A stretch of 22,470 nucleotides of DNA from IMG/VR virus record IMGVR_UViG_3300042400_001417, positions 1-22,470 of that record. One strand, 5' to 3'. Under the pieces are notes generated by a model. The model saw only the letters and a list, made by a program, of their open reading frames with translations. It made no database searches and had not been told where the DNA came from. Made by a program: the position numbers and the translations under genes. The stretch is from a virus. Shown here one piece after another: positions 1-22,215 of the stretch. Each line of letters opens with the position of its first letter. Position 1 is the stretch's first letter.

Positions 1-228
1 CTGGGTGCCTAAAACTGATAACTTTTGCTTGATTTGAACTACATCTGAATCAATTGATGCAATTTCAACTGAAACTTCGTCCTGTCCCTCAACATAATTG
101 ATTGAACGCAAAAAATCCTGAACCGCTGACGCGATTAAGTTAACGTTAAAATTTGTAAACTCGACAATAGAGGTAAGGCTTGTATTTGATAACTGCTTTA
201 CGCCTGAAAGTTTGACCTGAACTGCCAT
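1..228 (-). CDS. N-terminal part of an unknown, possibly fibre-like virion protein (3' end outside window)
   Basis: The first 76 residues are visible; the frame is open to the window edge. The ATG start at 228-226 is supported by a GAGG three bases upstream (232-235) and by a late-promoter-like GATAAATAAT at 260-251. I do not recognise the protein. Residues 26-43 (N26-F-N28, L31, V36-Q-D38, S42-I43) match the spacing of a segment at residues 27-44 of the 328-aa protein encoded at 18397-17411 (N27-A-N29, L32, V37-Q-D39, S43-I44). That suggests a shared N-terminal docking or trimerisation segment. The visible end (about residues 55-72) is heptad-like and could begin a coiled coil. Its place at the end of a run of virion genes makes a structural role likely, but this is inference from context. 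Confidence 0.6.
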   Translation of the reverse strand, partial: MAVQVKLSGVKQLSNTSLTSIVEFTNFNVNLIASAVQDFLRSINYVEGQDEVSVEIASIDSDVVQIKQKLSVLGTQ

Positions 229-250: not shown

Positions 251-260
251 ATTATTTATC
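251..260 (-). promoter_or_regulatory. Late-promoter-like box GATAAATAAT
   Basis: This matches the NATAAATA late-promoter core of T4-type phages (T4 consensus TATAAATA). It lies in the 58-base gap before the gene starting at 228, with 22 bases between the box and the ATG. That gives a leader of roughly 15-17 bases if transcription starts about six bases past the box, as in T4. Confidence 0.65.
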
Positions 261-286: not shown

Positions 287-1630
287 TCACTCTTTTGCCC
301 TAACGCTAGTAGAGTCATCAACAACAAATTCCGTTTTTGAGTCAGCTATTGAATTATAAGATAGCGTACCCGACCGAACAATACATTCTTTTAGTTCTGC
401 AAAAATTGGGTGTTCTGGCTTAATATCTAAATATGAACCAGCAATTAAATTAACTCCGTCTCGCTGGAATGAACAATTTTTGAGCAGCGAATGACGAATT
501 TCATTATTTGTGTGAATTACGCTCTCACTAATTAGCGAAGATTTTACACGGCAACCGTATAGTAAACAGTTTGAAACCTCGCCTTCAATTACACAATTGA
601 ATAGATCAACTCCTGAGATACCAAAACCCTCTTTCAGTTTAGCATCCTTTATTTGAATTCGCTTCGTTGCTGTATCATAGTTAACAACACCGGATTTTAG
701 ATTGCCGAAAGCAATCATATCGAATAGAGCATCCTTTAGATTTGCAAAGTTCGACTCGACTATTGGCTGATCTGCCCGCAAGTCAACATACAAACTAATG
801 TTTGGATATGCAGTTCTTAGATTCTGTGGGCTCTTTACTGCAAGCAGAGTTGCCTTTTGTTTTTCTAGAATCTTAGAGATTTGTTGTTTTTCAGTTAACG
901 AATAGTCTGAATTATTTTCCAGAACAGTATGAGTTAATTCAGTTAAGTAGTTAATAAGCTCAATCGCTTGACTCTTTTTATTTTGATAGTCGGTGCCGCC
1001 AGCATATCTAATTTCAAGATAACTTTCAGCCAATTTTGAAAAATTAAGACCAAAATATTTGGATTGAGGCACGTTAAATTGAGTTGGATCAGGTTTAACA
1101 TGTAGTGCAGTTTCGGCAATGAATCTATTTTTTGGATAGATGAAATTTACTGAACCTTTATAGGGCTTTTGAGTCTTATTTAGCGCACTTGGCCACAGAT
1201 CGTAAATCTTAGCTTCATCCAAATTCAAAATAAACTTAAGTACATTTAGATTCTCTAATGAAACTGGTAGGTTTGCGGTTTTCTTATCAAAAGATAAGTT
1301 GATGTGTAGTCCGCAACGATCGCTAGTAAAACCATTTTCCGCAATAACGTTCATTGATCTAAATAGTACGTTAACTGCCTCTGCATACGGCAATGGTGCT
1401 GTCACAAATTCATGCATTTTAAAACCTCCAGAGAAATCTGCCTCCAGTTTAAATTGTGACTCAGTAACTGGCGTGCCAGATTTATAGGAATTTGACCAGA
1501 CTACTTGACGACCTAGGGCTTTTTCAAATATTGCTGCTAGGTTCTCACGGCTAACTGGTGAAAAGAATTCAAACTCAAATCCCAGATTTGCGTTTTCAAA
1601 AATGTGTCTTTTAGATAGGTCGTTATACAT
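287..1630 (-). CDS. Amidoligase-like (GS-fold COOH-NH2 ligase) protein with C-terminal beta-helix-like region
   Basis: The 447-residue product carries, in order, the landmarks of the Amidoligase_2 family (glutamine-synthetase-like fold, ATP-dependent carboxyl-amine ligation). They are an acidic first strand G17-F-E19-F-E21, an L62-E-A-D65-F-S67 strand, H73-E74-F-V-T-A-P79, C106-G-L-H109-I-N111, Y192-F-G-L-N196-F and L205-E206-I-R208-Y. The metal- and ATP-binding Glu and His positions therefore look kept, although the usual second histidine of GxHxH is Asn here. Residues 217-310 are mainly helical. Residues about 325-400 have short hydrophobic repeats (CVIEGEV, CLLYGCRV, SLISESVI, SLLKNCSF), as in hexapeptide or other beta-helices. 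There is no signal peptide or membrane segment. It follows the 682-aa gene by nine bases and has a late-type box that ends six bases before the ATG; no SD is visible. The substrate is unknown. Modification of a virion protein, or of host wall peptides, is inference. The family call is from motif recognition only. Confidence 0.62.
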   Translation of the reverse strand: MYNDLSKRHIFENANLGFEFEFFSPVSRENLAAIFEKALGRQVVWSNSYKSGTPVTESQFKLEADFSGGFKMHEFVTAPLPYAEAVNVLFRSMNVIAENGFTSDRCGLHINLSFDKKTANLPVSLENLNVLKFILNLDEAKIYDLWPSALNKTQKPYKGSVNFIYPKNRFIAETALHVKPDPTQFNVPQSKYFGLNFSKLAESYLEIRYAGGTDYQNKKSQAIELINYLTELTHTVLENNSDYSLTEKQQISKILEKQKATLLAVKSPQNLRTAYPNISLYVDLRADQPIVESNFANLKDALFDMIAFGNLKSGVVNYDTATKRIQIKDAKLKEGFGISGVDLFNCVIEGEVSNCLLYGCRVKSSLISESVIHTNNEIRHSLLKNCSFQRDGVNLIAGSYLDIKPEHPIFAELKECIVRSGTLSYNSIADSKTEFVVDDSTSVRAKE

Positions 1631-1636
1631 ATTAGA

Positions 1637-1644
1637 TATTTATC
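1637..1644 (-). promoter_or_regulatory. Late-promoter-like box GATAAATA overlapping an upstream stop codon
   Basis: GATAAATA on the minus strand includes the TAA stop (1642-1640) of the 682-aa gene and ends six bases before the amidoligase-like ATG at 1630. If it is used with T4-like geometry, transcription would begin about one base before the ATG, giving an almost leaderless mRNA. It could equally be chance in an AT-rich junction, with translation by reinitiation from the upstream gene. Confidence 0.4.
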
Positions 1645-3688
1645 GATTTATTGCAATGAAAGGTACATTCAATTGAGGCTTAGCATTATCAACGATTGCT
1701 ACAATCGACTCGTCTCTGATCCAAAGTTGACTTAAGACATAATCATGATCCTCTTCCTGAACCATAGTTTTAAATAGTCGAATATTTGCAATTGAATAAT
1801 CTCCAGCCATTAATGAATAGTTTGACAGTGACGATGCTAATGGGGTAGCTAGTGGCACAAAGTTTGTATAGTCCTTAATTAACTTATTGAGATTCTTAAC
1901 ATTCGCTGGATCCTGTTGAAATGAATATCTAGTGACTCCGACTTGAGAAAACTCATTTGAAATTGGAATGACTAGGGCATACCAAGTATCCCTAGCAACT
2001 GGCCCGGTTTCAAAATTGATCACTGTCGAATTAACGGTTATTACCAAACGCAGCTTGTCCGTTCCAGAATCGTTCCAGATGACGCCTGAGACCGCTAATC
2101 CGTTATTGTTAGTGTTATCTTTAGTTCTGATAATGGGTGAATCTGTAAAGCTCTGATTAAACTTAACTAATGCAGTAAACGTCATATTTGAGTACTGTGT
2201 TAAGTCCTGCTTTTCTTTATAGATTACAGCGGTTTCGGACTTCTTGATCTTTAATTGACCGCCATCCAGTGTTAGATTTTTTCTAACAGTCGAGCCTAGT
2301 GCCTTATAGCCTTCAACTAGTACGTATCGACCAGATGCTGTAAATGAGTCCTTTGGTCCATTTAGTTTAACTGAAGTTGATCCCCCGGTGTAATAGTTTG
2401 TGTCGCCAACATTCAGTCTGCCGCCTAGCCAATCCAAAAAGACTTCGCTCTCTTCGTATGCATAAAAAGCATTTGGTGTATCTGGACTTAAGTACTGATC
2501 AGTCTTGGTATTTGTTGTGCTAGGCGTATATGCCTGTAAGGTTGGCAAAATACTGGATAAATCGTAATAGTGCTCGATTAACGGCGCATAATTATACGTG
2601 ATGTCCAAGATTTTGGATCTTAAGTTTGGGTGGATTTTTTCACGAACTTCGTCAAATCTTTTGGAAATAGTCGAATATTGTTGTTTCATTAGTGCATCTT
2701 CAGTTTGCACCTTTGCCTCTGCTCCAAACAATTCATCAGTTGTCATGATGACATTATCTAATGACGCTTTAATTCCGGTGTCTTCAATTAGCATATCGAT
2801 ATTTGGATGAAACTTCGTTAGCTGTACTTTCCAGTAAATAGGTTCCATCATAAACCCACGGTGTAGATACGAACCTTGAATTTCATACATACGATTAGTT
2901 AATGGAAAATAGAGATAATCTCTTTTTCGAGGTTGTGAGTCAACGCCAAAGATTGATTGAAAGTAAGTATGGTCAATATGAATTTCAAATGGAATCTCAA
3001 AGTCAACACCAAATTCGTTAAAAACTGGTTTTGAATCCGGAAAAATATTGTCCGGTACCATTACCTTAACGCACTTTCGATTTGTGGTTTTATAGAGTGT
3101 CCATTCTTTAAAGATGAAGTCGCCAGATTGACGATCAGGTTCAGTTTTAAAGTAGACCACCTCATGGCCGAATATCTTATTTGTTTGTAGACTTAGCTCT
3201 CTAGCAATACCGATTGCTGAATCAACTCCGTATGGATTAAAGCTTGCTTCTCGGTCAGCGATTATAACTGGACAGCCTTCTGCACTACAGCTAACCGAAC
3301 CATATGAAGTTTCAGGCACTGAAATAGAATCACTAGTTACAGTTAACTGGATTTCTTCAATTACGACAGGTTGCGCAAGCGCAGCATAGGTCGAATTATC
3401 ATAAGTATACTTAAATTCAAAATAAGTTGAAACTGAATCGTCCAGCACTACAGTATTGGAATTATCAAATGAAACCCAAAGCGACCAGTTTTGACCGTCC
3501 TTTGACCATCTAAACTGGCGGTTTAAATTGGTCAGCAAGTTACCGTTTAACTCTAAAAAATTGTTAAGACTGACGATTTGCACAACATTTGGCACAGGTT
3601 CAGTTAGCCTAAAAATTCGATAATTCTTGCTATAAGTGATCGAATTATTGGCGGTGTCTGTAACCAATTTAAAGAGTAAGTTCCGCAT
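1640..3688 (-). CDS. Virion structural protein with probable LamG-like jelly-roll C-terminal domain
   Basis: The 682-residue protein has no signal peptide or transmembrane helix. The N-terminal third is beta-rich and has a short Cys pair (SCSAEGC, about residues 132-140). A segment near residues 250-275 is rich in aromatic and charged residues (RDYLYFPLTNRMYEI). This kind of segment looks familiar from uncultured marine myovirus structural proteins, but I cannot give it a T4 gp number. Residues about 325-390 are helical. From about 490 to 640 the pattern (DLTQYSNMTFTALVKF, then strand pairs and DTWYALVIPI) resembles concanavalin/LamG jelly-roll domains that bind glycans in phage fibres. The ATG at 3688 lies 14 bases after a GATAAATAA box; the leader is A-rich without an SD. 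A baseplate- or fibre-associated role is inferred from its neighbours. Confidence 0.6.
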   Translation of the reverse strand: MRNLLFKLVTDTANNSITYSKNYRIFRLTEPVPNVVQIVSLNNFLELNGNLLTNLNRQFRWSKDGQNWSLWVSFDNSNTVVLDDSVSTYFEFKYTYDNSTYAALAQPVVIEEIQLTVTSDSISVPETSYGSVSCSAEGCPVIIADREASFNPYGVDSAIGIARELSLQTNKIFGHEVVYFKTEPDRQSGDFIFKEWTLYKTTNRKCVKVMVPDNIFPDSKPVFNEFGVDFEIPFEIHIDHTYFQSIFGVDSQPRKRDYLYFPLTNRMYEIQGSYLHRGFMMEPIYWKVQLTKFHPNIDMLIEDTGIKASLDNVIMTTDELFGAEAKVQTEDALMKQQYSTISKRFDEVREKIHPNLRSKILDITYNYAPLIEHYYDLSSILPTLQAYTPSTTNTKTDQYLSPDTPNAFYAYEESEVFLDWLGGRLNVGDTNYYTGGSTSVKLNGPKDSFTASGRYVLVEGYKALGSTVRKNLTLDGGQLKIKKSETAVIYKEKQDLTQYSNMTFTALVKFNQSFTDSPIIRTKDNTNNNGLAVSGVIWNDSGTDKLRLVITVNSTVINFETGPVARDTWYALVIPISNEFSQVGVTRYSFQQDPANVKNLNKLIKDYTNFVPLATPLASSLSNYSLMAGDYSIANIRLFKTMVQEEDHDYVLSQLWIRDESIVAIVDNAKPQLNVPFIAINR

Positions 3689-3703: not shown

Positions 3704-3712
3704 TTATTTATC
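3704..3712 (-). promoter_or_regulatory. Late-promoter-like box GATAAATAA for the 682-aa gene
   Basis: GATAAATAA on the minus strand is 14 bases from the ATG at 3688. It is one half of a divergent pair with the plus-strand box at 3739-3747. The two boxes are separated by 26 bases. Confidence 0.65.
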
Positions 3713-3767: not shown

Positions 3768-4562
3768 ATGAGACCACTTAACCCCAAACTGGTGCTTGAT
3801 CCGCTATGGTTGTGTCAGGCAAATTATGTAGACCTGGAGTACTACACTTATGTGCTATTGGATGCTCAACAAAAGTATCTTAAGAATCTAGAATTAGACT
3901 TTAGTAACTTTTATGAGATTGCATTTCATTATTTTAATCTAAATACAGTATTGGCTGATAAAAAGCTGTACAACTCAAGCTTGGAGACAATTAATAGCGA
4001 CCGAAACCTGCTTGAAATAGTGAATTCTCTTGCAAAAAGAGATGAGTCTGGTGAAAGTTCAAAGATTATAACTAGAGCATCGGAGATCTTGGGTCAAACT
4101 CTAAAGATTTATCTAGAAAGACAGACTTCAGTATTAAAGAACATGCATTTTTACTTTAATAATGCAAAGTTACATAAAGAAACTAAAATCTATATTGTCT
4201 GTCGCAGTACTCGAACTGACGAATACGATATTATCAAACTTAACTTGGCAAGCAAAAGACCACTTGCGTGTTCGCTAATTAAGTATGCTTCAGTTAAATT
4301 GCCTGATCTAAAGGAAAACGAGTTCAGGGCTAGGTTACTTGAAGTCAAGCCAAACCTGGTCGACTTTTTACCTGAGAAGAATGTGATTGTTTGCACATAT
4401 GACGACTTGGTACACGAACATGATGCGATCTTTTTAACAAAAGACCTAATCATTCTAAACAGATTAGTTAATAATCGCGGAAGTTTTGATTCAAATGCGA
4501 TCCTAGATGCCTATCGCTTGCTTGAAAAGAAGAAAGCTATTCCTTTTAAATTAAAGGTTTAA
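3768..4562 (+). CDS. Conserved-looking hypothetical protein, the only gene on the plus strand
   Basis: The 264-residue soluble protein has no signal peptide or membrane helix. Residues 1-135 are mostly helical and begin with a proline/aromatic segment (LDPLWLCQANYVDLEYYTYV, residues 10-29). Residues about 138-235 look alpha/beta, with strands such as KIYIVCRS and KNVIVCTYDDL. The end is helical and basic (EKKKAIPFKLKV). I do not recognise the family and see no catalytic motif. It starts after its own late-type box (3739-3747). Its TAA (4560-4562) overlaps the TAA of the convergent fibre gene (4561-4559), so nothing separates the two. Late timing suggests a virion component, an assembly factor or a lysis-time function. 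The reversed orientation inside a virion operon suggests a later insertion or an inversion. Confidence 0.7.
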   Translation: MRPLNPKLVLDPLWLCQANYVDLEYYTYVLLDAQQKYLKNLELDFSNFYEIAFHYFNLNTVLADKKLYNSSLETINSDRNLLEIVNSLAKRDESGESSKIITRASEILGQTLKIYLERQTSVLKNMHFYFNNAKLHKETKIYIVCRSTRTDEYDIIKLNLASKRPLACSLIKYASVKLPDLKENEFRARLLEVKPNLVDFLPEKNVIVCTYDDLVHEHDAIFLTKDLIILNRLVNNRGSFDSNAILDAYRLLEKKKAIPFKLKV

Positions 4563-9500: not shown

Positions 9501-11607
9501 TCTTGTAAATTGCAAAATCCAAGTCCTTTATGTCAAATAGTGATAGGACTCCAACTTTATTCTTTGCAATTTTACGGATCTCAATGTTGCCATGTGCAAC
9601 ATACGGCACCTCATTATCAGTTAACAGAATTGTGGCTTTTTCCAAAAAGTCAGTTTTGCCTTGCAGCAAAGTAGCCTCATTCTGCAATGGAGACAATAGT
9701 GAAGTCGATCTAGTAACTCTTGAAATCCTTGACCAGTTAGTCTGAGTTTTGACGATTAACTGGTCTTTAATCTCATTTATCTTTGTTAATGGCACAGTAG
9801 TTTCATTAACTTGGCCATTATCGATTACTGGATATGGGTTAGTACTACCGCCGTCTGCATACACATATGAATCAATCGGAGTACCAATTAATTTTAAAGC
9901 AGAGTTTTGTGAAGCCGCTTTTAGTTGACCAAATGATTCACCAAAGGGTTTCATTTGAACAAATACATAATTCTGTACTGCAACTGCTTGAATATCTGTC
10001 TCTTTAAAATTATTAATTGCTTTTGCCGTTGCGATTGCAATGTCTTGGGTGTCGCCGTCAGCTGACACATAGATAACACTCTCGCCGCTTGCTAAATACT
10101 CAACTGAGGCTACACCAGGTTCGTTAAATGCGAAGCTTCCGCCAGTTGCGGCAGATGATAGAATAAAAGTTAGCGGCTCGTATTCTCCTCCGCCATCGGT
10201 GTGAGTGCCGTTTGAATGATATAACTTGAAACTGCTAACGTTGGCAGGCGTACTTTCAATTTTAATACACAAAGTAGATCGACTAGGCAACTTAGAAGAG
10301 ATAGCTGGTTCCTGAGAAAACAACTCACCTGGGCCAAAGAATGAACCTAAGTCAATAGATTGATCATCGATTCTGAAGTCAGCAAATCTATTTTGTTGGT
10401 TCCAACTAAATGATTTAACTAGGTGAACATCTTCTTTAGTTTCAACGTATGTAAAGAAGATGTTGTCGTCAGTCACCATTGAATTTTTTAGATCATCTAA
10501 CTGTTCAGTTAGATTTTTTGCTCTAATTTTTACTCCATTTGTATTGGTTACCGGTAATACGATGTCTTCGTCATTGGTGTATTTTATAGTTAATGCTTGG
10601 TCGTTATCTGCTGGGTTATTGAAGGTTGCATCTAAGTCTAGATCAAACTCAGCTAATTCAATTCGATTACAATAAACTCCAAAATACCGGTTTATTTCAA
10701 AGTCTTCTGCAGTATCATCATTAAACACAAATTCCATATTCAGAATATTTGGGTGTATGATGCTATTGCTTTCAAAATTGTTAACGATGAACTGCTCCTT
10801 TTTTAATAATGGAAAAGCTCCAGTTAAAACGCTATTTGTGTCTACTGGTAATTCAACATAAGTTCCGCTCTTTATTGAGAGTCCTCGGTAATATGATAAA
10901 CCTTTTGGATTATAATTGATCGCTAGTGGCGAAGTTGGAAACATTGGATTTTCAATGATTCTCTCCAAGTATGCACCAATTTTTGTCTCAGGTCTTAAAT
11001 CGAATGCTTTAACTAACTGAAAGTTCTTAAAGAAATCTCGGCGACTTGTAATAAGCTGATCTAATGTTAGAGTTTGATCAATTTCTAATTGCGAGGTTGA
11101 ACTAGTAAAACGAATTAACTCACTGCTTAACTGGTTGGCTTGTGAGCCAGCTGCATAGCTACTTGCACCTTTGATTTTAAAAATGATGAATGAATCTGGT
11201 ATGATTCGGTTAAGGTACAGTGGAGCAAAGTATGAAAACTTTTCGTCATACTGTTTAGACTTCAAGTATTTTGCACCACTTGTATAAAAATCAAAATCGA
11301 ACTGATTTTTCAAATCTCTAGCAGTAACGCTCTGAGTAATAGTAGAACCGACTTTGAATGCGATTTTACTGGGAGTTTTGCCTTTATCGTAGAAATTGAA
11401 AACATTGAATTCGTGACTCTTTGTTATATCAATTGAGTATCTCTGATATTGGTCCTTTGCTAATTCCGGATCAGCCGCAATAGAGTTCAGATATAAGTTA
11501 TCCGAACCATCTACTACTAATTTAAGATTAGATGTTAATTTAGGATTGGTCCTAATTAACTGGAAGCTAGCATCACGGCCGACTAATTTTGTATATGAAA
11601 TACTCAC
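6559..11607 (-). CDS. Giant (1682-aa) structural protein, probable baseplate/tail periphery
   Basis: This is the longest gene in the window. It starts with GTG at 11607, 14 bases after the stop of the 1191-aa gene; AGAG five bases upstream is a modest SD. The protein is beta-rich and soluble, with no signal peptide and only a handful of Cys. The opening (R19-T-N-P-K-L-T, then LVVDG and LYLNS by about residue 41) and a central block at about residues 870-922 (KWGLKDSIDC, NPYRLNADLVFG, LTHEWFYIE) look strongly constrained. They resemble segments I associate with large structural proteins of uncultured marine myoviruses. No enzyme motif, coiled coil or clear repeat was seen. Its position between the 1191-aa protein and the collagen fibre suggests a scaffold that carries fibres. 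The exact T4 counterpart is unknown. Confidence 0.65.
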   Translation of the reverse strand: MSISYTKLVGRDASFQLIRTNPKLTSNLKLVVDGSDNLYLNSIAADPELAKDQYQRYSIDITKSHEFNVFNFYDKGKTPSKIAFKVGSTITQSVTARDLKNQFDFDFYTSGAKYLKSKQYDEKFSYFAPLYLNRIIPDSFIIFKIKGASSYAAGSQANQLSSELIRFTSSTSQLEIDQTLTLDQLITSRRDFFKNFQLVKAFDLRPETKIGAYLERIIENPMFPTSPLAINYNPKGLSYYRGLSIKSGTYVELPVDTNSVLTGAFPLLKKEQFIVNNFESNSIIHPNILNMEFVFNDDTAEDFEINRYFGVYCNRIELAEFDLDLDATFNNPADNDQALTIKYTNDEDIVLPVTNTNGVKIRAKNLTEQLDDLKNSMVTDDNIFFTYVETKEDVHLVKSFSWNQQNRFADFRIDDQSIDLGSFFGPGELFSQEPAISSKLPSRSTLCIKIESTPANVSSFKLYHSNGTHTDGGGEYEPLTFILSSAATGGSFAFNEPGVASVEYLASGESVIYVSADGDTQDIAIATAKAINNFKETDIQAVAVQNYVFVQMKPFGESFGQLKAASQNSALKLIGTPIDSYVYADGGSTNPYPVIDNGQVNETTVPLTKINEIKDQLIVKTQTNWSRISRVTRSTSLLSPLQNEATLLQGKTDFLEKATILLTDNEVPYVAHGNIEIRKIAKNKVGVLSLFDIKDLDFAIYKTDYSRFDKIDLFKDFYEPANVPTLNFRKYVYKAIGSGKVSVNDIEYSAGDFIWQDTNQIRLYELVEGDCALVKTSISPNQFLSLQDGDNPLDFIDLATVAIDDEELRNYTGQFSIRTPNATALDSLNTKFTELAEYRNRYLVGAIDSEYLLYGETASVEFALDNKITPYICKWGLKDSIDCRSNPYRLNADLVFGKDNFGPSHTETSPTPEKLTHEWFYIESDFGFNSVPETMLQNYSYFETKFNYSRFVTEAGYFDEYFNYVPTVNGKQIDRVQLRYSDLFKDPYSGQYETVFKGVKYRFFELDQALFAQNNSPVNSLKIETDRFKDYRFSAILIPVEDQFDQPITPARFEIVENTNAKAIVVLIYVALASKQYLNPGVELRTIDLSPKQYSQAELVSISPAGNIVFTELYGDYRIDFSQTGVSNLTHSFLYYAKDKKYNAGKESYSTTRLAKNVDLSFTTFQINVDQNTSSSVALDIPIGLGYSASIQSQIAIVQEQYSPLVLFKPTGQNFASQIIFITVDGSLQISQTPNPILKVDQNVVTYASSDSFAVEVLNTGVTLTQNILSQLPFGSQQQWRDLYYTYQINGGANYYERLFQYFSFANFKFLLDTNETVISWKSFTNGNLSTTQQFTIRSVDPNEISLTSSVLNLAEAVVSNSKSVTGGYSYSNYSTLPIDIHRYSGEYDVIVKPVSAFYQNFQINNIEIDGANCALNIRMPDVFILPEFYHVKYSQAQLLELENSTKYLPVYPLIDETPIGRSPYNILSSSWDRDYHFSYENKNTYSKIFGTRRITEDYSFVSKLINVPESLHLDEFYISLVDQAQFRSPNFSNMVEYADYAKSIRFKVDFAKAAAVGFKNKGLYTEFEKFFVDQSGNTITSSIPLLGELTLDQYTEAYAKQNLQSLYKVDEVEVWQKFDKTLAPGTVQLVSRTLDQFINEGYTQTKNVRINNQNPNMLEGTIDKPINSGMYIGFRIKIKFI
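6650..6658 (-). promoter_or_regulatory. Possible internal late promoter AATAAATAA ahead of the fibre gene
   Basis: AATAAATAA inside the 3' end of the 1682-aa gene lies 90 bases before the fibre ATG at 6559. It is identical to the intergenic boxes but coding, so it may be chance. If active, it would boost fibre expression over the giant protein. Confidence 0.3.
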
Positions 11608-11621
11608 TTAACTCTATATTT

Positions 11622-14600
11622 TTAGACGACGAAAATACCTCGTGGATCGCCGCCGTCACTTTGACTTACGATTGTTGTGGCAATCACAGTAGTTTCCTTA
11701 GTATATTGACATGATACATTCAAATCGAAAGAAAATACGTTATTCTTTGAGTAAATATCAATTCCTAACGTTTTTGAGTACTTTATATTTTTTAAGGCGC
11801 CAGTTGTTCTAAATCCTCCAATATATTCAAGTTTATCACTACACCTAAATTGGTATATGATAGGAATATTAATTGCTTTCGTATTGCCGTTTTCTAATTC
11901 TCGTTTAGCGCCAACTGGATTTAAACTGGTTGTTGAAACTGCTTCATACGATGTTGGTGACATGAAGAGGTATGAACCACACGAATATTTACCAATTAAA
12001 TAATCATCGCCTGCGCCAAAACCAAGTTTGATAGGGTATTGTCTTTCTCTTGTGTTTGCCGCTGGAATTGATCCTGAACTTATAGTTGCACTAGCTGGTG
12101 TAACTCTTTCGGCTTGTTGCCAGTATTTTGCACCAAAGGCATTAGTTGACTCTTCAACGCTAGTTTCAAAATGAACCCCGTGGCTAAACGCTAGAGTTTT
12201 CTGAATGTTTGCCGTTACCTCAGCTGCAGTATACGGCGGTCTTTGATAATCTATTGACCAAGCAGTAGTTGCATCTGGGTGATCTTTGTGAATACAGAAT
12301 TCCGATAGTCTGCCATTTCCGTTACCAACTCCACTAGTTACAGTACCATTCCAAACGTTTGCGTTTGTTGACCAGTTTGTATTCGCCCAAGTTGGTGAAA
12401 ATGGCAAATAGTGACCCTCTCTGTATGGAACTAAACTTGTTCCGAAGGTTGATCCTTGATAATTATAAAGAGTATCTCCTCCAGGTATAGGATATGAAGT
12501 TGTGCTTGGAGTTTGAGATTCACCAGCATACAGAGAATTCTTAATGCTAATATTCTTATATCTAGCATAGATGTATTGACTTCTAACTTGTGAACTTTGA
12601 TAGCCTTCAATTTGTGCAAAGTCTCCAATCTCGCCAGACGTTGCGTTATCAATCATGATCGGCGTTTTGTCATAACGTAAGTTAGAGTTATAGTTAGAAT
12701 CAGTTGTTGCAGCTGGGTCGGATGCTTGTGCTGCTTCACCGATACCTCCAACTAAGTATGAAATTAACTCCAATGGAGTTTGTGACGCATTTGATAGGTT
12801 AAGTGTGTATGAGTTTGCAATAACTTTACCGTGGCTATATGTAGTAGTTTGACCAGAAGTATCTTTGATAAGTTCCTTATAGTAACCGGCAAAGATATTA
12901 ACGGTTTGACCGTTTGCAATCGAAATTTCATTTGAGTTAGGTTCAATTATTCTAACTACTAGTTCACCAGCAGTTGTTGAAATTGAAGCTTTTAGTGCAG
13001 CTAATTCGTCAGTTAGCGATTTTAACTTTGCATACAAATCAATGATTGAACCGTCTGATCCAAAGAATCCGCTTGCGATATCTTCCGCTTTGTGCGCATA
13101 GTACTTATCTCTAGTTGTAAACGCTGAACCTAAGTGTATGTCAAGACCTTTCGCATTCAATTCATCTTGGAAAGTTATGCGGGTCTCTTCAGCAAAAACC
13201 TGTTGTGCTAAAATAGTTGCTTCTTCTCCAGACTCGATATTTTGTGGAAACTCAACTAAGATCGGATCAGACCATTCTGATTCAATTGCATTGTCTGGCC
13301 AGCCAGCTTCAGAAATAGATTTGATTCTGATTTCGACGCTCTCGCCTTTGCGAATTGGAATATCTAATTGGTTTGAATTTACTGCATCAGCGTCTGCGAC
13401 ATTTTCTTCAACCCACTCATAAAAACCAGTAAGTTCATTTAAGACCTTAGTTCTAGCTTTAGTTACGATTTCAGTATATGGAGAAAAATAACCAGTCTTT
13501 TTAGAGCCAACTGAATCTACAAATTCAAGAGCATCAGCTGTCTGTGAAGTACCTGTTTTGCTTAAATATCGGTATGACACTTTAAACTGAACTACTTCTT
13601 GTGTACCGTGTTCGGTTATTTTCGGAGCAGGAATTTCCCAGAATCCTCTAACTCGATATTTAGAGTCAGCTATAAATTGTGGAGTTGTCTTAATTGAAGT
13701 AGTAATCTCTTTAACAACTGATGATAGATTAGTTGTTGCAGATGAACGAGTATCACTCAGAGTTTGTAGTTCCTTTTGAAGAGATAAACGCTGGCTTTCG
13801 TTTAGTGAAGCATTAGTATTTAAGTTTGCCTTAACTCTAGAAATCTGTTGATCAGTCTCTTTGATTTGAGAAGAGAGCTGTTCTTTTGCAGAAATCTTTT
13901 GCTTGATTTGATCAGTATTGTCCGCGTTTTTGATGTGTTGGTCAATCTGAACAACTTTAAAGTTTGCGCTAGCTAAAGTTGGTGAATTTGGAACTTCGCC
14001 AAGCGAGTTAGGCAATTTCTTTTCTTTTGCGTAGTTAAGGAATAGTAAACCAAAGTCTGATACAAATTTTACATAGAACTCGGACAATGGCATCGTCTTA
14101 CCATTGTTTAGAGAAATTGTAAGTTCATTGGTGAATACTCCAAAGCCTCTTGAATATTCTTCAGTTGTTACACCAAGTCTAGTGCTAATCGGTTTAATGA
14201 AGATTACTTCACGCTCATTATATCCGACGTTTATTTGTAGTTCTGGAATAACTACCAGAACTGGCTTTAGGTTTAGGACATTTGCGCCTTGGGCAACGCT
14301 ACCTTCGCCGAATATACGGTTTAGAATTATCGTCTTCAGCTTTTTATCTACTGAATCTACTTGATATTCTGAACCATCGTTCGTTATTAGCATATCGCCA
14401 GCTTCCAGGGTTTTTTCAACCGTAGTTGGGCCAACTGTTTGATAATAACGAATTGTGTTTAGTTTATATTTTCTAACTGAACGGCTTAGTGTGTCACCAG
14501 AGATAAGTTCAGTTTGAGTATCTTCTAGAATTTTGATAACATCAAAGGAACCTCTAACTGAATTAACAGCTGGCGGTAGATCAATGATGTTTGTATCTTC

Positions 14601-15202: not shown

Positions 15203-17392
15203 TTATCTTGTTATTTTATCAACAATAAAGTCAAGAGTTCTATCATTTTGACAAATAATCGAGATGATAGGTCTTCCATTTCTACCATAGGTCGTTGGGA
15301 AGTCGCTTGCTGTTAAAATTGCGATAGTTTTTCCGTATGCGGCTGGATTGCCTAACTTATTTTTAGCGTCGGTTTTAATAGTTATCGTATAACCAGCCAT
15401 TTCAATTTGATCATCGATAACTAGATCAAACTTTTGACCGCTTCTCCAATCTATGACTGTGTCGTCGATCTTGATAATTACGTTACCAGTAAGAGTCGTA
15501 CTAGAACCAGCATTCTTGTGGCGATAGTAAGTATTGTATAAGCCTAGTGATAATGTTTTTGTTCCGAGCGGAGTTGTTGCTGGGCTTAAGTTAATATCTT
15601 GTACAGTCGAATATGGTGTAACATTTGACGCGATAGTTACCTCATTTGGGATTCGACGGTCGATGATAATACCTGCACCAGGTCTTAATACGTCTAAGTT
15701 ATAACTAACGTTTATTGAGCTACGACCAGCAACTAAATCGTCAACTTTTTCAGAAGTAGTCTCGATCATATCCAGCAATTCAGTTGAATTTTGAAAAGCT
15801 ACTTGGCTTGCCAATAATGAATTTTCGACAGCCTTTAGTCTAAGATCTAATTTTTGTAGAGTATTTGAGCTCGATAGCACGTCCTTTGCGCTTTCAACTG
15901 ATGCTCGTAAATTCTCAAGCTCTAATAATTTATCATTAAACGAAGTTTGTAGACTTCTAAACTCAGTCATAACGTCTGTGAATAAGTCTAATGAGAATGT
16001 ATTAAAATCGTTGATTGACTTTTCAACTGCAGTATCTTCAATTGATGTATCAAACTTTACGTTTAATTTGAATGCAAAAGAGTTGCCGTTTGTTTTAGCA
16101 ATTACGTCTGGTTTGTCCTTCTCAATAAATGGAATTGCATATTCTAGCCCGCTTCTTTCGACTTTGTTTAGGAAATAAACTCCATATAAATTTGTCTCAG
16201 AAGCAGTAGTTGCGCCACTATCATCGTATACGTCATAGTAAACTAGGATCGCATTAAATTCAAAGTTACGATTATCCACGTAATCATTTAGCTGTGAAAA
16301 TACTTTGATTTGTGGATTGTCATAGGCAATCGCATAGTTACTAAGATTGAAGTCAACTGTTACTCCATCGAGAGTAGATCTTAAGTATTCAACCGTTGAA
16401 TTACTAAAGGTCTTTTTAATTCTCTGTACGTAAGCTTTATTGTAATTTGCGCTAGGCTCAGTGAAATAAGTATTAGTTGTCGAAATTGAACCCCACCAAA
16501 AACTAGGAGTAGTTGGAGCATATCCCAAAACTGCTGCACTTGGGTCGGTTGGTAGAATATTATTCATTTCAACCTTAGTTGATGCATATTGAGAGATTGA
16601 GTTTGCGTCCAAATCGTAATATGCACGTAAGTTCATACCTGCAAATGGGTGAGTATCATAATAATTTCTGCCCTTTAAATATTCTTCATTCAAGGGGTCA
16701 TCTGGATTATTAACTACCAGCATCCCAGCACCATAGTTTACGTCTGCAACTGACTTAAATAGGACAGTTGGTGTTGAACCAACGTTTGTTGGTACGTGGA
16801 TGTAAAGTTCAGAATATGAATTTTCTGGATTCTTAACTGAATTGACTACATCAATTTCTCCGACGTAAACTGCTACTCTATTGTAAGGGCTTGCGCTTTG
16901 ATCGTAAAAATCTTCGGAGAATCGAGCTTCTCCACTTGGGACGTTTGCTGAAACTTCAACTTGACCCAATTGGCTGGTCTGTCTAGCTGTTCTCCAACGA
17001 ACTGCTCCAGTTTCCTTTAACCATTTCCAAAAAACTCTTTCTGAAACATTCAGTTTAGTTTCTCGGTTATACGTTGGTGAGGAGATCATTAGTGCCTCTA
17101 AATTCAAAGCATAGTTCTGAAAAGAAGTAGCTAAGTTTAGATTTTGGTCAGTTGATAGGCCTTCGGTGATTGGTGTTTCGCCAAGTGCATCGAATTGGAT
17201 TTTATTGTCCAATAGTCTCTGCGTGTTTGGATCGCCAATCTCTGGAATGCGCAGTAACACAAATTTAGAAAACTTAAACTTGTTCGCCCCATTATTATTG
17301 AAGGTTAGGTTCAAATCTTCAAGCGCACTTTGAAAAGTATAGAATATACCTTTCTTTGTCTGAATTGGTTTTATTAATGGTGTTACTGCCAT
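15203..17392 (-). CDS. 729-aa structural protein with central coiled coil
   Basis: The N-terminal block (residues about 14-50: GIFYTFQSALEDLNLTFNNN, KFKFSKFVLLRIPEI) is unusually rich in Phe, Asn and Lys and looks like a conserved module. Residues about 120-450 are beta-rich. A long coiled coil runs from about 455 to 550 (TEFRSLQTSFNDKLLELENL and ENSLLASQVAFQNSTELL). The last 180 residues return to beta structure, with NVIIKIDDTVIDWRSG and DLVIDDQIEMAGYTITIKTD. This layout (head, trimeric stalk, beta tip) is typical of trimeric baseplate or short-fibre proteins. The ATG at 17392 follows the stop of the 328-aa gene by 18 bases; the leader has AGAAA rather than a clear SD. The function is inferred from architecture and operon. 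Confidence 0.62.
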   Translation of the reverse strand: MAVTPLIKPIQTKKGIFYTFQSALEDLNLTFNNNGANKFKFSKFVLLRIPEIGDPNTQRLLDNKIQFDALGETPITEGLSTDQNLNLATSFQNYALNLEALMISSPTYNRETKLNVSERVFWKWLKETGAVRWRTARQTSQLGQVEVSANVPSGEARFSEDFYDQSASPYNRVAVYVGEIDVVNSVKNPENSYSELYIHVPTNVGSTPTVLFKSVADVNYGAGMLVVNNPDDPLNEEYLKGRNYYDTHPFAGMNLRAYYDLDANSISQYASTKVEMNNILPTDPSAAVLGYAPTTPSFWWGSISTTNTYFTEPSANYNKAYVQRIKKTFSNSTVEYLRSTLDGVTVDFNLSNYAIAYDNPQIKVFSQLNDYVDNRNFEFNAILVYYDVYDDSGATTASETNLYGVYFLNKVERSGLEYAIPFIEKDKPDVIAKTNGNSFAFKLNVKFDTSIEDTAVEKSINDFNTFSLDLFTDVMTEFRSLQTSFNDKLLELENLRASVESAKDVLSSSNTLQKLDLRLKAVENSLLASQVAFQNSTELLDMIETTSEKVDDLVAGRSSINVSYNLDVLRPGAGIIIDRRIPNEVTIASNVTPYSTVQDINLSPATTPLGTKTLSLGLYNTYYRHKNAGSSTTLTGNVIIKIDDTVIDWRSGQKFDLVIDDQIEMAGYTITIKTDAKNKLGNPAAYGKTIAILTASDFPTTYGRNGRPIISIICQNDRTLDFIVDKITR

Positions 17393-17410
17393 GTGGTTTT
17401 CTATTGTTTA

Positions 17411-18397
17411 TTAAGATTGAGCTACGGTTGTTAATCCAGCAACAGCTGCTGTCACAAGTCTCATTGGAACAGTTGTGTTAATAACAGTCAATGTACCAGT
17501 ACCGGCGTAATTTGCAGCAGGGCCATCAAATTTCAAATATGGACCAGCAATTACGATTGGTGAAGTTGCAGCGCTTGCTTGTTGATTAATAAGAGTACGG
17601 TTTAGACTTGCGTTATTTCCACCAATAACTCTAACTACTGCAGCACTTTGCCATGCTGATGAAACATCAACTGAATCGCTGCCTTTAACGGATTTTACCA
17701 TGAAGGTAAAGCTTTGACCTTTAACTGGTGGAGTTGTTGAGTTCGTGTAGATATTAACAACTACAATTGGGCTAGTTAATGCGTTCGCTGCAGTTGACGT
17801 GATTGGATAAACAAGAGCAAGTTCGATATTTTGTTTTGAAGTGGCATTCAATGTGATATCGCATTGGTATACGCTTGGGCTACCGGAAACGGCAGTTAAA
17901 TTTGCAGTAACTGACTCTGAACTGTGCTGAATTGAGTTGCTAAACTGCGCGCTGCCGAGTACATACATACCAGAGCTTGCAGCAATAGTTAAACCGTCGG
18001 TAAGCAAGTTAGCCAGATCAGTTATTCCAACGCCAAGACGAGTAACTCCAATCTTGCTAGCTGCTCCCATTGCTGAGACGTGGCCGCCGGCTTTAATTGA
18101 AATTTGGTCAACCGCTAGGATTGATTTACCCGCAGATTTAGTTAACGACCCGATTTGAGTAGAACCGTCCGTAAAGAGTAGTTCATTTCCAAGTCTAAGA
18201 GCACTTGTGTAAATGCTAGTTAGCGGATTGTCTACTCCGATTTTCTTGTTAACTGTATCGATTTCAATTGAGTTGAAAGCGTCTTGCACAGTATTTTTTA
18301 ACAGAGTTGTGTTCGCATTAATAATGATACGCATGTCCGAAATGAACGTGCTCTCAAGTAATTGTTGCGTTTGCAAGTTAAGTTGTGTGAATGCCAT
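17411..18397 (-). CDS. 328-aa low-charge virion protein, probably abundantly expressed
   Basis: The product is rich in Ala, Ser, Thr, Val and Ile, with very few charged residues after position 100 and a single Cys, in the style of fibre or surface-decoration proteins. Residues 27-44 (N27-A-N29, L32, V37-Q-D39, S43-I44) match the N-terminus of the gene at 228-1 and, in part, the collagen fibre. Expression signals are the best in the window: two tandem RATAAATAA-type boxes (18429-18421 and 18420-18412) and a clear AAGGTG seven bases before the ATG. The local GC appears higher than in its neighbours (42% and 53% in two 60-base lines counted by hand, against 33% in one line of the 1682-aa gene), which fits optimised codons of a high-copy protein. 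No enzyme motif is seen. Candidates are a decoration protein, a fibre subunit or a fibre-tip protein. Confidence 0.65.
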   Translation of the reverse strand: MAFTQLNLQTQQLLESTFISDMRIIINANTTLLKNTVQDAFNSIEIDTVNKKIGVDNPLTSIYTSALRLGNELLFTDGSTQIGSLTKSAGKSILAVDQISIKAGGHVSAMGAASKIGVTRLGVGITDLANLLTDGLTIAASSGMYVLGSAQFSNSIQHSSESVTANLTAVSGSPSVYQCDITLNATSKQNIELALVYPITSTAANALTSPIVVVNIYTNSTTPPVKGQSFTFMVKSVKGSDSVDVSSAWQSAAVVRVIGGNNASLNRTLINQQASAATSPIVIAGPYLKFDGPAANYAGTGTLTVINTTVPMRLVTAAVAGLTTVAQS

Positions 18398-18404
18398 TTG
18401 TTTA

Positions 18405-18410
18405 CACCTT
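18405..18410 (-). promoter_or_regulatory. Strong ribosome binding site AAGGTG
   Basis: AAGGTG lies seven bases before the ATG at 18397. It is the clearest Shine-Dalgarno sequence in the window. Confidence 0.7.
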
Positions 18411-18411
18411 T

Positions 18412-18420
18412 TTATTTATG
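18412..18420 (-). promoter_or_regulatory. Late-promoter-like box CATAAATAA (proximal of tandem pair)
   Basis: CATAAATAA directly abuts the distal box at 18421-18429 and ends 14 bases before the ATG at 18397. The SD would lie about one base inside or outside the transcript if this box sets the start, so the distal box may be the working one. Confidence 0.5.
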
Positions 18421-18429
18421 TTATTTATC
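18421..18429 (-). promoter_or_regulatory. Late-promoter-like box GATAAATAA (distal of tandem pair)
   Basis: GATAAATAA ends 23 bases before the ATG at 18397. With T4-type geometry the transcript would begin just before the AAGGTG site, giving a complete leader. Confidence 0.68.
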
Positions 18430-18442
18430 AGGAGCTCATCTA

Positions 18443-21400
18443 TCATCTCGATAGTTCAAGTTTTCTCCGATTTAACTCATTTTCAACATAGTCAACATAG
18501 AGATCCTTTGGTAAAACTTCAACGAACATGATCGAGTTCGCTGTTGAAAATATGTTACCGAATGAGTCTTGAGTAGATACATCGATTGTGTATTTACCAG
18601 GCTCGTTAAATCTCCAAGTAAAATATGAAGTTGATTTAATTTTAGCAAGTTCAGTACCGTCCTTCCGTAGAGTCCAAATAGTTTCAGTCTTGGAGTCAAT
18701 ATTGTTAACTACTGCAAAGACCGGCATTTGTAGTGGAATCCTAATCGTGTCATCCGATACTTTTAGACCAACAAAGTCAAATGCATTTTGATCATAGTAT
18801 GACGGTAAGAATCCAGTTTGTGCAGTTGTTGAATATGTCACAAAGCCACGATCGATCCAGTATTGAGTAGTTCCACCTAGTCCTTGAATCAAATCATCGA
18901 ACGGTACATTTAGGAACAATAGGTCTCTATCTACTAATGGAAATTCTGTTTCCAACCAGCTAATAACGTCTTCTGAATAGACTTTAGTTGGAAAACTAAA
19001 TGTGTATTTTTTAACAGTAACTGAACTTGGGAAAGTAAATGTCAGTATTGCGTGATTTTTTCGGTCAATTAGCTTTGCAGCTGCTCTAACTTGAGAGCCG
19101 ACTACTGCGTATGTATAGTCAGACCAACCAGCAAACGGCACTTGATTCATGTAGTTTGCGAACTGAGTTAAGTTTGAAGAGTATTGTGGAGGTACTGTTA
19201 TTGCTGGAAAATTGCCATATTGCATTGAAATTAGGCCGATTGGATCTATTGAGAAACCATTTAGATAATCGACAGGATAAACTGCGTGGCCGAGTCTAGT
19301 GTGATACATTGAGCCTAATCGAACATTGGCTAAATCTCCAAGAGTTAGTCGTCCATCGTTTAAACCTAGACCCCATTGCTTTGCAGCAGGCACGGTTGAC
19401 GTAACAATCGGTTCATAGACTGAACCGTTATAAATTTCAACACGACTAACTGATGAACCTAGACCGAAATTATTTAAGTATGTAAAAAGACTAAAGTGAT
19501 TGCTATCTAATAAGATTGAGCCTGGATCTGGGTCGACCACGTTAACTGCCGCATTATAGATTGAACTACTACCAAAGTCCCGGATCATAACATTGTCTAG
19601 GTTTTCAAAACGATATGAAAACTTATCTTCAAGTCTTGTGAAAACGGTTAGCATTGGCTCTTCGCCTTCAACCTTGATATAAAGATTATCTGTTGAGATG
19701 CCGGCTGCTAGATCATACATTTTTAGAGTAACTGTATAATCTCCAACATATGGTAGGATATGTGGCCATTTTGCATAGTCGACAGTTGTGCCCCTAACAT
19801 TATAGTAGTAATTGTTTGGTCCAGTAATTGTCCATTCAGCTTCAAACGAATCTCGATACTTTAATGTTCCGATTGTGTGATGAGATTTCATTGAATCTGA
19901 TGTTTCAGCTGTGTATGGGCCGAATGATATTGGAATAACGTTTGCCTGCTCTAGTAAGTTATCAACTGAATACCAACCTGTACCAGCTAAGGTATCACCT
20001 TCATCAACAAACGCAATAACTCCAAGAGAATTAATGTATGTCGTAAAATCTGTTGTTCTGGCCCAGCTCGCATCGCTAGCTAACCAAATACCGTTTTGTA
20101 TAGCATTAGTCTGTTCCTTAACTAGAACTCTGTCCCCGATGTTTACTTGGACTCCATCAATTTCCTGCAGACCGCTTAGTGTGATATTTGTAGTAGTTGC
20201 GACTCTAACGAAAGATTTAGTTACTCTAAATTCGTTAAAAGTTGATCCGTCTAGATCAGACAAAGTTAGATCGTCAATGTTTGCGAGCAGCACAATAGGA
20301 CAGCCACTTTGGCCGTGGGCATCATCACCTAATTTAAATGGATTGTCTTCACCGTGATATTTAAACTCATAAGCTTTCTCATTCAAATAGTAACTTTGAA
20401 TTGCTTGGACAAAAGTTTGTGCCTGAGCTGGATCGTAGTGTTGATTATTTGAGTATGGATGAATTTGAGAAACGTTAAATGTCACAAATGGAAAGGCTGA
20501 AGTTAGATTTTCCTTTGGAAATAGTGACTTTATATCTCGGATTATCAACTCTTGAGACTTTGTATTGGGATATATGATCTCGGCTGTAAAATCTTCATTG
20601 ATTTGGGTCTCAACGATATCAGTTCGGTCTGGCCAATAACGTAAATTGAACTTCTCAAAGTAGATAAATTCACCAATTATGTCCTTGATCACAACGTTTA
20701 TCGGTAAAATCTCATTTTTGAGCTTTTCCGACATTTTATTGAGCTTATAGAAGATCTCGTTTACCGTAAATTCAGTTGTAAACTCAACTTCAGGTAAACC
20801 ATCATCGTCATATTGACCGCTTGGCTGAGAAAATTGATAAACTAGCGCTAAAAATTCAGTTTTTACAAACCGTTCGCTCTTTTTTATCTGTGCATTGCGG
20901 TTAACTAGGTCTAGATTTTGAATAATGCCGTCATCCATCATATCAGTGATGTCGACTTGGGCAAATTTCTTATAATATGGCGAGTTTACCTCAACGTTTT
21001 GCCAATATTCCTTAACTTTTAAGACGTCTCGATAGCCGAGGATGTTAACTAAGTTGATTAGTCCTTTGTATGTACCTACATATGGATAAATTTGATCACG
21101 ATTGACTAAAATTTCCTTTCGGGCTAAGTTAACGTCTTTCCAGTCCGGTAAATTTTCCTTTAGGTCGTAATTTTTAAGGATTTGAGCGTCTTCGCGATTG
21201 AATTTGATACCAAAGTTGTTCAACCACACTCTAAATCTCTCATCTTCGTCCTCACCTTCACCATAAAAGCCTAATTCTAAGATTTTAACCGTATTTGTGC
21301 TATCGTTCCAATAAAATTCAAGCACTCGGTCATAGGCTCTTTCAATATCGGGCGTAAATGCAACGTTTACCTGCAAAGGATACTTTAAATTGCTAAAATT

Positions 21401-21795: not shown

Positions 21796-22215
21796 TCAAA
21801 TTGTATAGATCTCGCTATCCGACGACTGGCTTAGAGACACAAACTCTATTTTCTCGCCCTTACCGATATGTTTGTAAATTTTCTTGTATTCTTTAGCGTA
21901 ACCATTTTTAGCAATCTGCGTAAAGTAGGCAAATGCGTTATTGGATTTCTCCTCATTAAAGTTTTGCCAGTATCTAAGTAGGTCCAATAGCGCTGACTGA
22001 ATACAGTCTTCCTTATCTAATGGATTTGAGAACTTTAGCTTTAAGATTGCTCGGTTTGCTAAGGTAATGAAGTATTCGATTGCTCTTGGTGATAGTTCAC
22101 CAGCTGTGTGTTGATACCCAGTTTCTTCGTTTAGGTGACCGTATTTGCAACGGACGATTTCGTTTGTGAAATCTTTATTGTTAATGTAGTACTTACTGGC
22201 TTTTGCTTTAGACAC
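21796..22215 (-). CDS. 55: T4 gp55-like late-transcription sigma factor
   Basis: The 139-residue protein resembles T4 gp55, the sigma-70-family factor that directs host RNA polymerase to late promoters. Residues 9-16 (YYINNKDF) match gp55's start (YNYVNNKEL). Residues 67-112 form a sigma region-2-like helix set: DKEDCIQSALLDLLRYW, then NFNEEKSNNAFAYFTQIAKN, against T4 gp55's [20 protein letters not shown]. No region 3 or 4 is present, as in gp55. It is shorter than T4 gp55 (185 residues); the C-terminus (SDSEIYTI) is acidic and hydrophobic and might serve as the sliding-clamp contact, but that is inference. The start is GTG at 22215 with no convincing SD, 15 bases after the preceding stop. 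NATAAATA-type boxes before nearby virion genes are its expected targets. Confidence 0.8.
   Translation of the reverse strand: MSKAKASKYYINNKDFTNEIVRCKYGHLNEETGYQHTAGELSPRAIEYFITLANRAILKLKFSNPLDKEDCIQSALLDLLRYWQNFNEEKSNNAFAYFTQIAKNGYAKEYKKIYKHIGKGEKIEFVSLSQSSDSEIYTI

Follow-up and report, generated by a model that had tools for sequence, protein, structure and literature searches.

An amidoligase fused to a pentapeptide-like β-helix in the virion gene clusters of huge phages: a candidate late amide-bond ligase

A huge freshwater phage carries, among its tail and neck genes, a gene for a 447-residue protein in which an Amidoligase_2 enzyme with a glutamine-synthetase-like fold, an assignment that is well supported, is joined to what we call a divergent pentapeptide-repeat-type β-helix, conserved together with the enzyme. 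Judged from its kept active site the protein is likely to carry out amide ligation, and we tentatively propose that it is a late ATP-dependent amide-bond ligase whose likeliest substrate is a phage virion-assembly protein and whose tail serves as a docking arm. The window is the whole 22,470-nucleotide stretch of DNA that was analyzed, in which the gene and its parts lie as follows.

287-1630 (-), amidoligase/pentapeptide-like β-helix protein (447-aa ORF with an ATG start; PF12224 above cut-off)
836-1630 (-), glutamine-synthetase-like catalytic domain, about residues 1-265 (AlphaFold2 pLDDT 84 and 82; Foldseek matches to glutamine synthetases)
1565-1582 (-), GFEFEF, residues 17-22 (E19 and E21, in 63 of the 63 rows with letters there)
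1430-1444 (-), EADFS, residues 63-67 (D65 and S67 in 69/69 homologues, E63 in 68/69; aligned with EPDGS of the Atu_ph07 amidoligase)
1394-1414 (-), HEFVTAP, residues 73-79 (E74 in 69/69; aligned with VELVSP of Atu_ph07)
1298-1315 (-), CGLHIN, residues 106-111, the HxN motif with H109 and N111 (H in 40/69, Q in 29/69; aligned with TGFHIN of Atu_ph07)
1040-1057 (-), YFGLNF, residues 192-197 (N196 in 69/69; aligned with RFFNF of Atu_ph07)
1004-1018 (-), LEIRY, residues 205-209 (E206 and R208, each in 69/69; aligned with YIEFRAVGG of Atu_ph07)
323-694 (-), pentapeptide-repeat-like β-helix, about residues 313-436 (AlphaFold2 strands; Pentapeptide_4 in 9/17 homologues; profile matches to MfpA/Qnr/McbG-like structures)

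Results

Family and fold

A sequence-only reading of this DNA had reported six Amidoligase_2-type motifs, and all six are present in the 447-residue frame in the order it gave. The Pfam family PF12224 (Amidoligase_2) matches the protein with 27.1 bits (E 4.8e-6), above its curated threshold of 22, and also matches 12 of 17 divergent homologues at E ≤ 0.1, while PHROGs held no family and NCBIfam no meaningful family for it. Together with this match, the retention of frame and motifs in relatives down to ~28% identity and the low dN/dS given below argue that neither arose by chance.

An AlphaFold2 model of the whole protein, built from 21 sequences, reached a mean pLDDT of 84.3 and a pTM of 0.76, and its top Foldseek matches in the PDB were glutamine synthetases (E 2.5e-5, probability 1.00); residues 1-300 modeled alone (pLDDT 82) again returned glutamine synthetases (E 6.8e-5, probability 1.00). 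The expected glutamine-synthetase-like fold was thus recovered, albeit with low TM-scores to the solved enzymes (0.2-0.4, at most 0.39, for both models), which means that only the core of the glutamine synthetase fold matches. Alignment of the family profile to E. coli GlnA with hhalign gave no real match, and the link to glutamine synthetase therefore rests on the structure search. Against viral models, Foldseek matched mostly named amidoligases, and the BFVD model A0A6J5PQ40 from an uncultured Caudovirales phage matched over the full length (TM 0.88-0.90, 33% identity); this entry, listed as uncharacterized, belongs to the same fused family as the window protein. The family profile also aligned to the amidoligase of Agrobacterium phage Atu_ph07 by hhalign (E 3.3e-13) from the EADFS through the LEIRY motif, with GFEFEF falling outside the alignment. 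The Glu, His, Asn and Arg positions of the putative site correspond to those of the Atu_ph07 enzyme, and the catalytic assignment made from the letters holds on this comparison, as does the amidoligase identity on the Pfam, Foldseek and viral matches taken with it.

Active-site conservation and selection

Conservation was counted over 69 distinct full-length homologues, the window protein included. Residues E19, E21, K61, D65, S67, E74, K191, N196, E206 and R208 are invariant wherever aligned, and E63 is altered once. From knowledge of the glutamine synthetase family we take E19 and E21 to be ligands of Mg-ATP, which the residues of the ExE/E/HxN/ExR site as a whole would presumably hold. The HxN motif is the variable part: besides the split at residue 109, residue 111 is N in 42 homologues and S or G in 27, the replacement of HxN by QxS/G occurring in one sister clade. 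In a maximum-likelihood tree the H/Q difference at residue 109 is a single change (support 95/89). The window copy has the H/N form and hence the full site; in the sister clade, Q and S/G at 109 and 111 may reflect altered or lost chemistry. Between close relatives dN/dS is 0.015-0.07 in both domains, with some dS values near or past saturation, and the fused family is under strong purifying selection.

The β-helix tail

The AlphaFold2 model shows strands in the tail from about residue 313 onward, up to where the helix finishes near residue 436, several of them five residues apart (356/361/366, 377/382, 395/400). A separate β-helical tail had been recognized from the letters and stands, while its length, put at about 75 residues, proved too short, since the modeled strands extend from ~313 to 420 or beyond. 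The window's own tail has no Pfam pentapeptide match at E ≤ 0.1, and its sequence shows no 5-residue period beyond chance; Pentapeptide_4 matches the tail in nine of 17 divergent homologues at the same threshold, and solved pentapeptide proteins of the MfpA/Qnr/McbG-like type are among the matches of the family profile. Enzyme and tail are kept together in relatives. A left-handed (hexapeptide) β-helix was our first idea for the tail and was dropped, as the profile matches point to pentapeptide repeats.

Distribution

With a query that was widened step by step, successive IMG/VR scans gave 33, 152 and 513 related stretches, and the top 80 from each scan were retrieved. Members of the fused protein family number several hundred viral contigs, belonging to huge phages of 219-735 kb. 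Among annotated phages, matches along the whole length were confined to six metagenomic huge-phage records (462-735 kb); in Atu_ph07 and Salicola phage SCTP-2 the match is limited to the enzyme part. At L074:4442-5759 the amidoligase frame is interrupted, possibly by an assembly error. Hundreds of related contigs from giant phages have retained the gene with both its parts, and it therefore probably has an important role late in infection. One relative sits on a 254-kb contig binned as Bacteroidota, and the predicted hosts of phages over 634 kb are Bacteroidetes (PMC7162821); we regard Bacteroidota as a weak lead to the host.

Late-type boxes

The pattern RATAAATA, chosen after looking at the sequence, occurs eight times in the window, and for six of the copies a gene on the same strand starts no more than 60 nt downstream, against 0.12 expected. 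Those six copies precede six genes (253-260, 1637-1644, 3705-3712 and 18422-18429 on the minus strand, 3739 (+) and 21779 (-)), and the pattern is likely the late promoter of this phage. The late-type box claimed earlier is accordingly real as RATAAATA and not as the T4 late box TATAAATA, which is absent from the window; the amidoligase gene's own copy is not found in all relatives. Searches of the window for tRNAs and Rfam families returned nothing. The elements nearest the gene, and the sigma factor gene, are these.

1637-1644 (-), GATAAATA late-type box before the amidoligase gene, overlapping the end of the neck gene
3705-3712 (-), GATAAATA box upstream of the neck gene (in 6/6 relatives checked)
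253-260 (-), GATAAATA box upstream of the downstream neighbor
21796-22215 (-), late-transcription sigma factor, gp55-like (phrog_234, E 1.5e-17; Sigma70_r2)

The box at 1637-1644 lies unusually close to the ATG (14 nt), and several relatives lack it or have it displaced; for these two reasons the amidoligase gene may be read from the neck-gene promoter instead of its own box.

Genomic setting

Two genes flank the amidoligase gene in the window.

1640-3688 (-), neck/head-closure Hc2 protein, upstream neighbor, 682 aa (phrog_679, E 1.7e-7; T4_neck-protein below cut-off)
1-228 (-), downstream neighbor, N-terminal part only (ORF; the homologue in L054 has 808 aa with Thr-rich linkers)

The Hc2 neck gene adjoins the amidoligase gene throughout the window's clade, and nearly all contigs of sufficient length share the order of a divergent 264-aa gene, the Hc2 neck gene, the amidoligase gene and the downstream neighbor. 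With a collagen-like fiber gene also in the window (Pfam match below cut-off), the earlier placement of the gene among virion genes is borne out. The 264-aa gene (3768-4562 (+)), divergent from the neck gene, keeps its place in most clade relatives and has no family match. In L054 the homologue of the downstream neighbor (11408-13834) has Thr-rich linkers of the form TTTTTIAPT, and a later gene (16990-21312) holds long GSSGTSGTSG repeats.

Across nearly every branch the amidoligase gene lies in or beside a neck, tail or baseplate cluster. Hub, baseplate, adaptor or gp25-like genes are found within a few kb of it in LR756500, LR745206, LR756502 and LR756504, and in LR756501 the sole virion gene linked to it is a distant one. 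The sister clade has the order hub, large protein, S1-domain protein, amidoligase, head-tail adaptor, gp25-like and gp6-like. We used the gp6-like gene as the seed, so that these loci were not chosen by the amidoligase itself; among seeded loci with more than 4.2 kb upstream, drawn from the 80 best matches (some near-identical, and not the whole clade), the amidoligase gene was present in 57 of 57, with the S1 gene just before it. The neck neighbors of the two clades, Hc2 in the window's and Ad2 in the sister clade, showed no homology to each other when compared. Huge phages of the sister clade also encode a RimK-like glutamate ligase (L216:6178-7662 (-) and L219:3303-4766 (+)), the L216 copy having a weak C-terminal retropepsin/Zn_protease match.

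The Prevotella phages Lak-C1 and Lak-A1 possess the gp6-like gene (E 1.3e-94, TAG read through) and an S1 gene, and neither matches the family profile or PF12224. Not every relative, then, requires the amidoligase gene, and this type of virion can be built without it.

Discussion

Proposed function and alternatives

As we picture it, the 287-1630 protein would be a catalytically active member of the Amidoligase_2 group that forms amide bonds in an ATP-dependent reaction. By family knowledge, such an enzyme would bind Mg-ATP in its ExE/E/HxN/ExR site and phosphorylate a carboxylate, after which an amine would attack the acyl phosphate. The C-terminal pentapeptide-like β-helix would act as a docking arm that chooses the protein target. 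The ligase would be made late, together with the neck and tail genes, and its likeliest target would be one of the phage's own assembly proteins, from the neck, tail or baseplate of the virion, to which an amino acid would be added or which would be crosslinked. Placement in virion clusters of different gene order, the late-type boxes and the gp55-like sigma gene support the proposal; the two Lak phages that lack the gene count against it, and gene order alone has no power to show that a product acts on its neighbors. For the target, we would put a phage assembly protein first, ahead of wall peptides and translation machinery, a preference that we hold with somewhat less than even confidence. 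The fuller picture, in which a late-cluster enzyme of a large huge-phage lineage places a non-templated amide or isopeptide bond on the phage's own neck, tail or baseplate protein under guidance of the β-helix arm, is doubtful as a whole.

It is improbable that the enzyme instead acts on host peptidoglycan, on envelope peptides or on a precursor, adding an amino acid and so blocking the attachment of other phages or changing the timing of lysis. A wall-modifying role was indeed suggested earlier for phage amidoligases, that of phiEco32 among them (Iyer 2009, as quoted in PMC10580990 and PMC11318856). Yet the COOH-NH2 ligase, glutamine amidotransferase and ATP-grasp partners of the cassette described below are not beside the window-type gene, whose neighbors are virion genes, and the gene is part of a late virion cluster instead of a block located near replication genes. 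A genome-wide search of 12 genomes likewise found PF14395 in none (a search without a positive control, as the control genomes gave no match either), RimK in four and GATase_6 in three, two of the three GATase_6 matches being, on inspection, asparagine synthases.

RimK adds glutamate to ribosomal protein S6, and a comparable modification of the translation machinery, or of the phage's own S1-domain protein, is a second reading that we consider unlikely. The S1-domain protein (~360-410 aa, e.g. L094:8838-10001) is encoded in 11 of the 11 searched huge phages that carry the amidoligase and in the two Lak phages. In the sister clade its gene lies directly upstream and nearly always overlaps the amidoligase gene (offsets of -11 to +3 nt), and a RimK-like ligase occurs in three genomes of that clade as well, all of which would suit such a substrate. 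Against it, phages of the window's clade carry the S1 gene elsewhere in the genome, and the Lak phages keep S1 without an amidoligase, so that S1 does not depend on the enzyme.

That the protein is a structural or chaperone component of neck or tail, its enzyme fold kept and its chemistry lost, is distinctly improbable: virion-cluster placement and the replacement of H109 in 29 and of N111 in 27 of the 69 homologues speak for it, but ten other site residues, E19, E21, E74, E206 and R208 among them, never vary, the copy in the window retains the complete site, and the H-to-Q change arose once and then held, so that re-tuning fits better than decay.

If the ligase does act on a virion protein, phage assembly would include a step in which an enzyme modifies a protein, in contrast to crosslinks such as those of HK97, which are spontaneous. 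The long conservation of the ligase in the virion clusters of the largest known phages, set beside its absence from the two related Lak phages, offers a natural comparison for finding the target.

Comparison with known phage amidoligases and pentapeptide proteins

The sequence-only reading had held the gene to be the best candidate in the window for an undescribed phage modification system, which is too strong, because amidoligases have been recognized in phages before and a role in modifying the wall has already been proposed for the one of phiEco32. What looks undescribed is narrower, namely a fused, cassette-free amidoligase of the virion cluster kept across huge phages; among the titles and passages returned by literature searches linking amidoligases with virions, baseplates, pentapeptide repeats or jumbo phages, none describes the fused gene.

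The tails of relatives resemble MfpA, Qnr and McbG-like pentapeptide proteins, matching Pentapeptide_4 and these structures by profile, whereas the window's tail is an appendage of an enzyme and lacks a Pfam pentapeptide match of its own. The Atu_ph07 amidoligase (AUZ94978.1), also from a jumbo phage, shares the ordered catalytic motifs and the glutamine-synthetase-like fold, and its gene is near the portal gene, its neighbors being a gene adjacent to that of the portal and one for a nucleotidyltransferase; the profile match, however, covers the enzyme part alone, and no Pfam pentapeptide match was obtained for the Atu_ph07 protein. LUZ24 and phiEco32 have an amidoligase that belongs to the same Pfam family, in a different arrangement: in these phages, RIO-1 and others, a COOH-NH2 ligase, a small protein, the amidoligase and a glutamine amidotransferase form a block, often with an ATP-grasp protein and a gamma-glutamyl cyclotransferase, near replication genes. 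The window-type amidoligase, by contrast, with its fused β-helix, stands by itself within a late virion cluster, which sets a virion-linked group of amidoligases apart from the cassette type with its proposed wall-modifying role.
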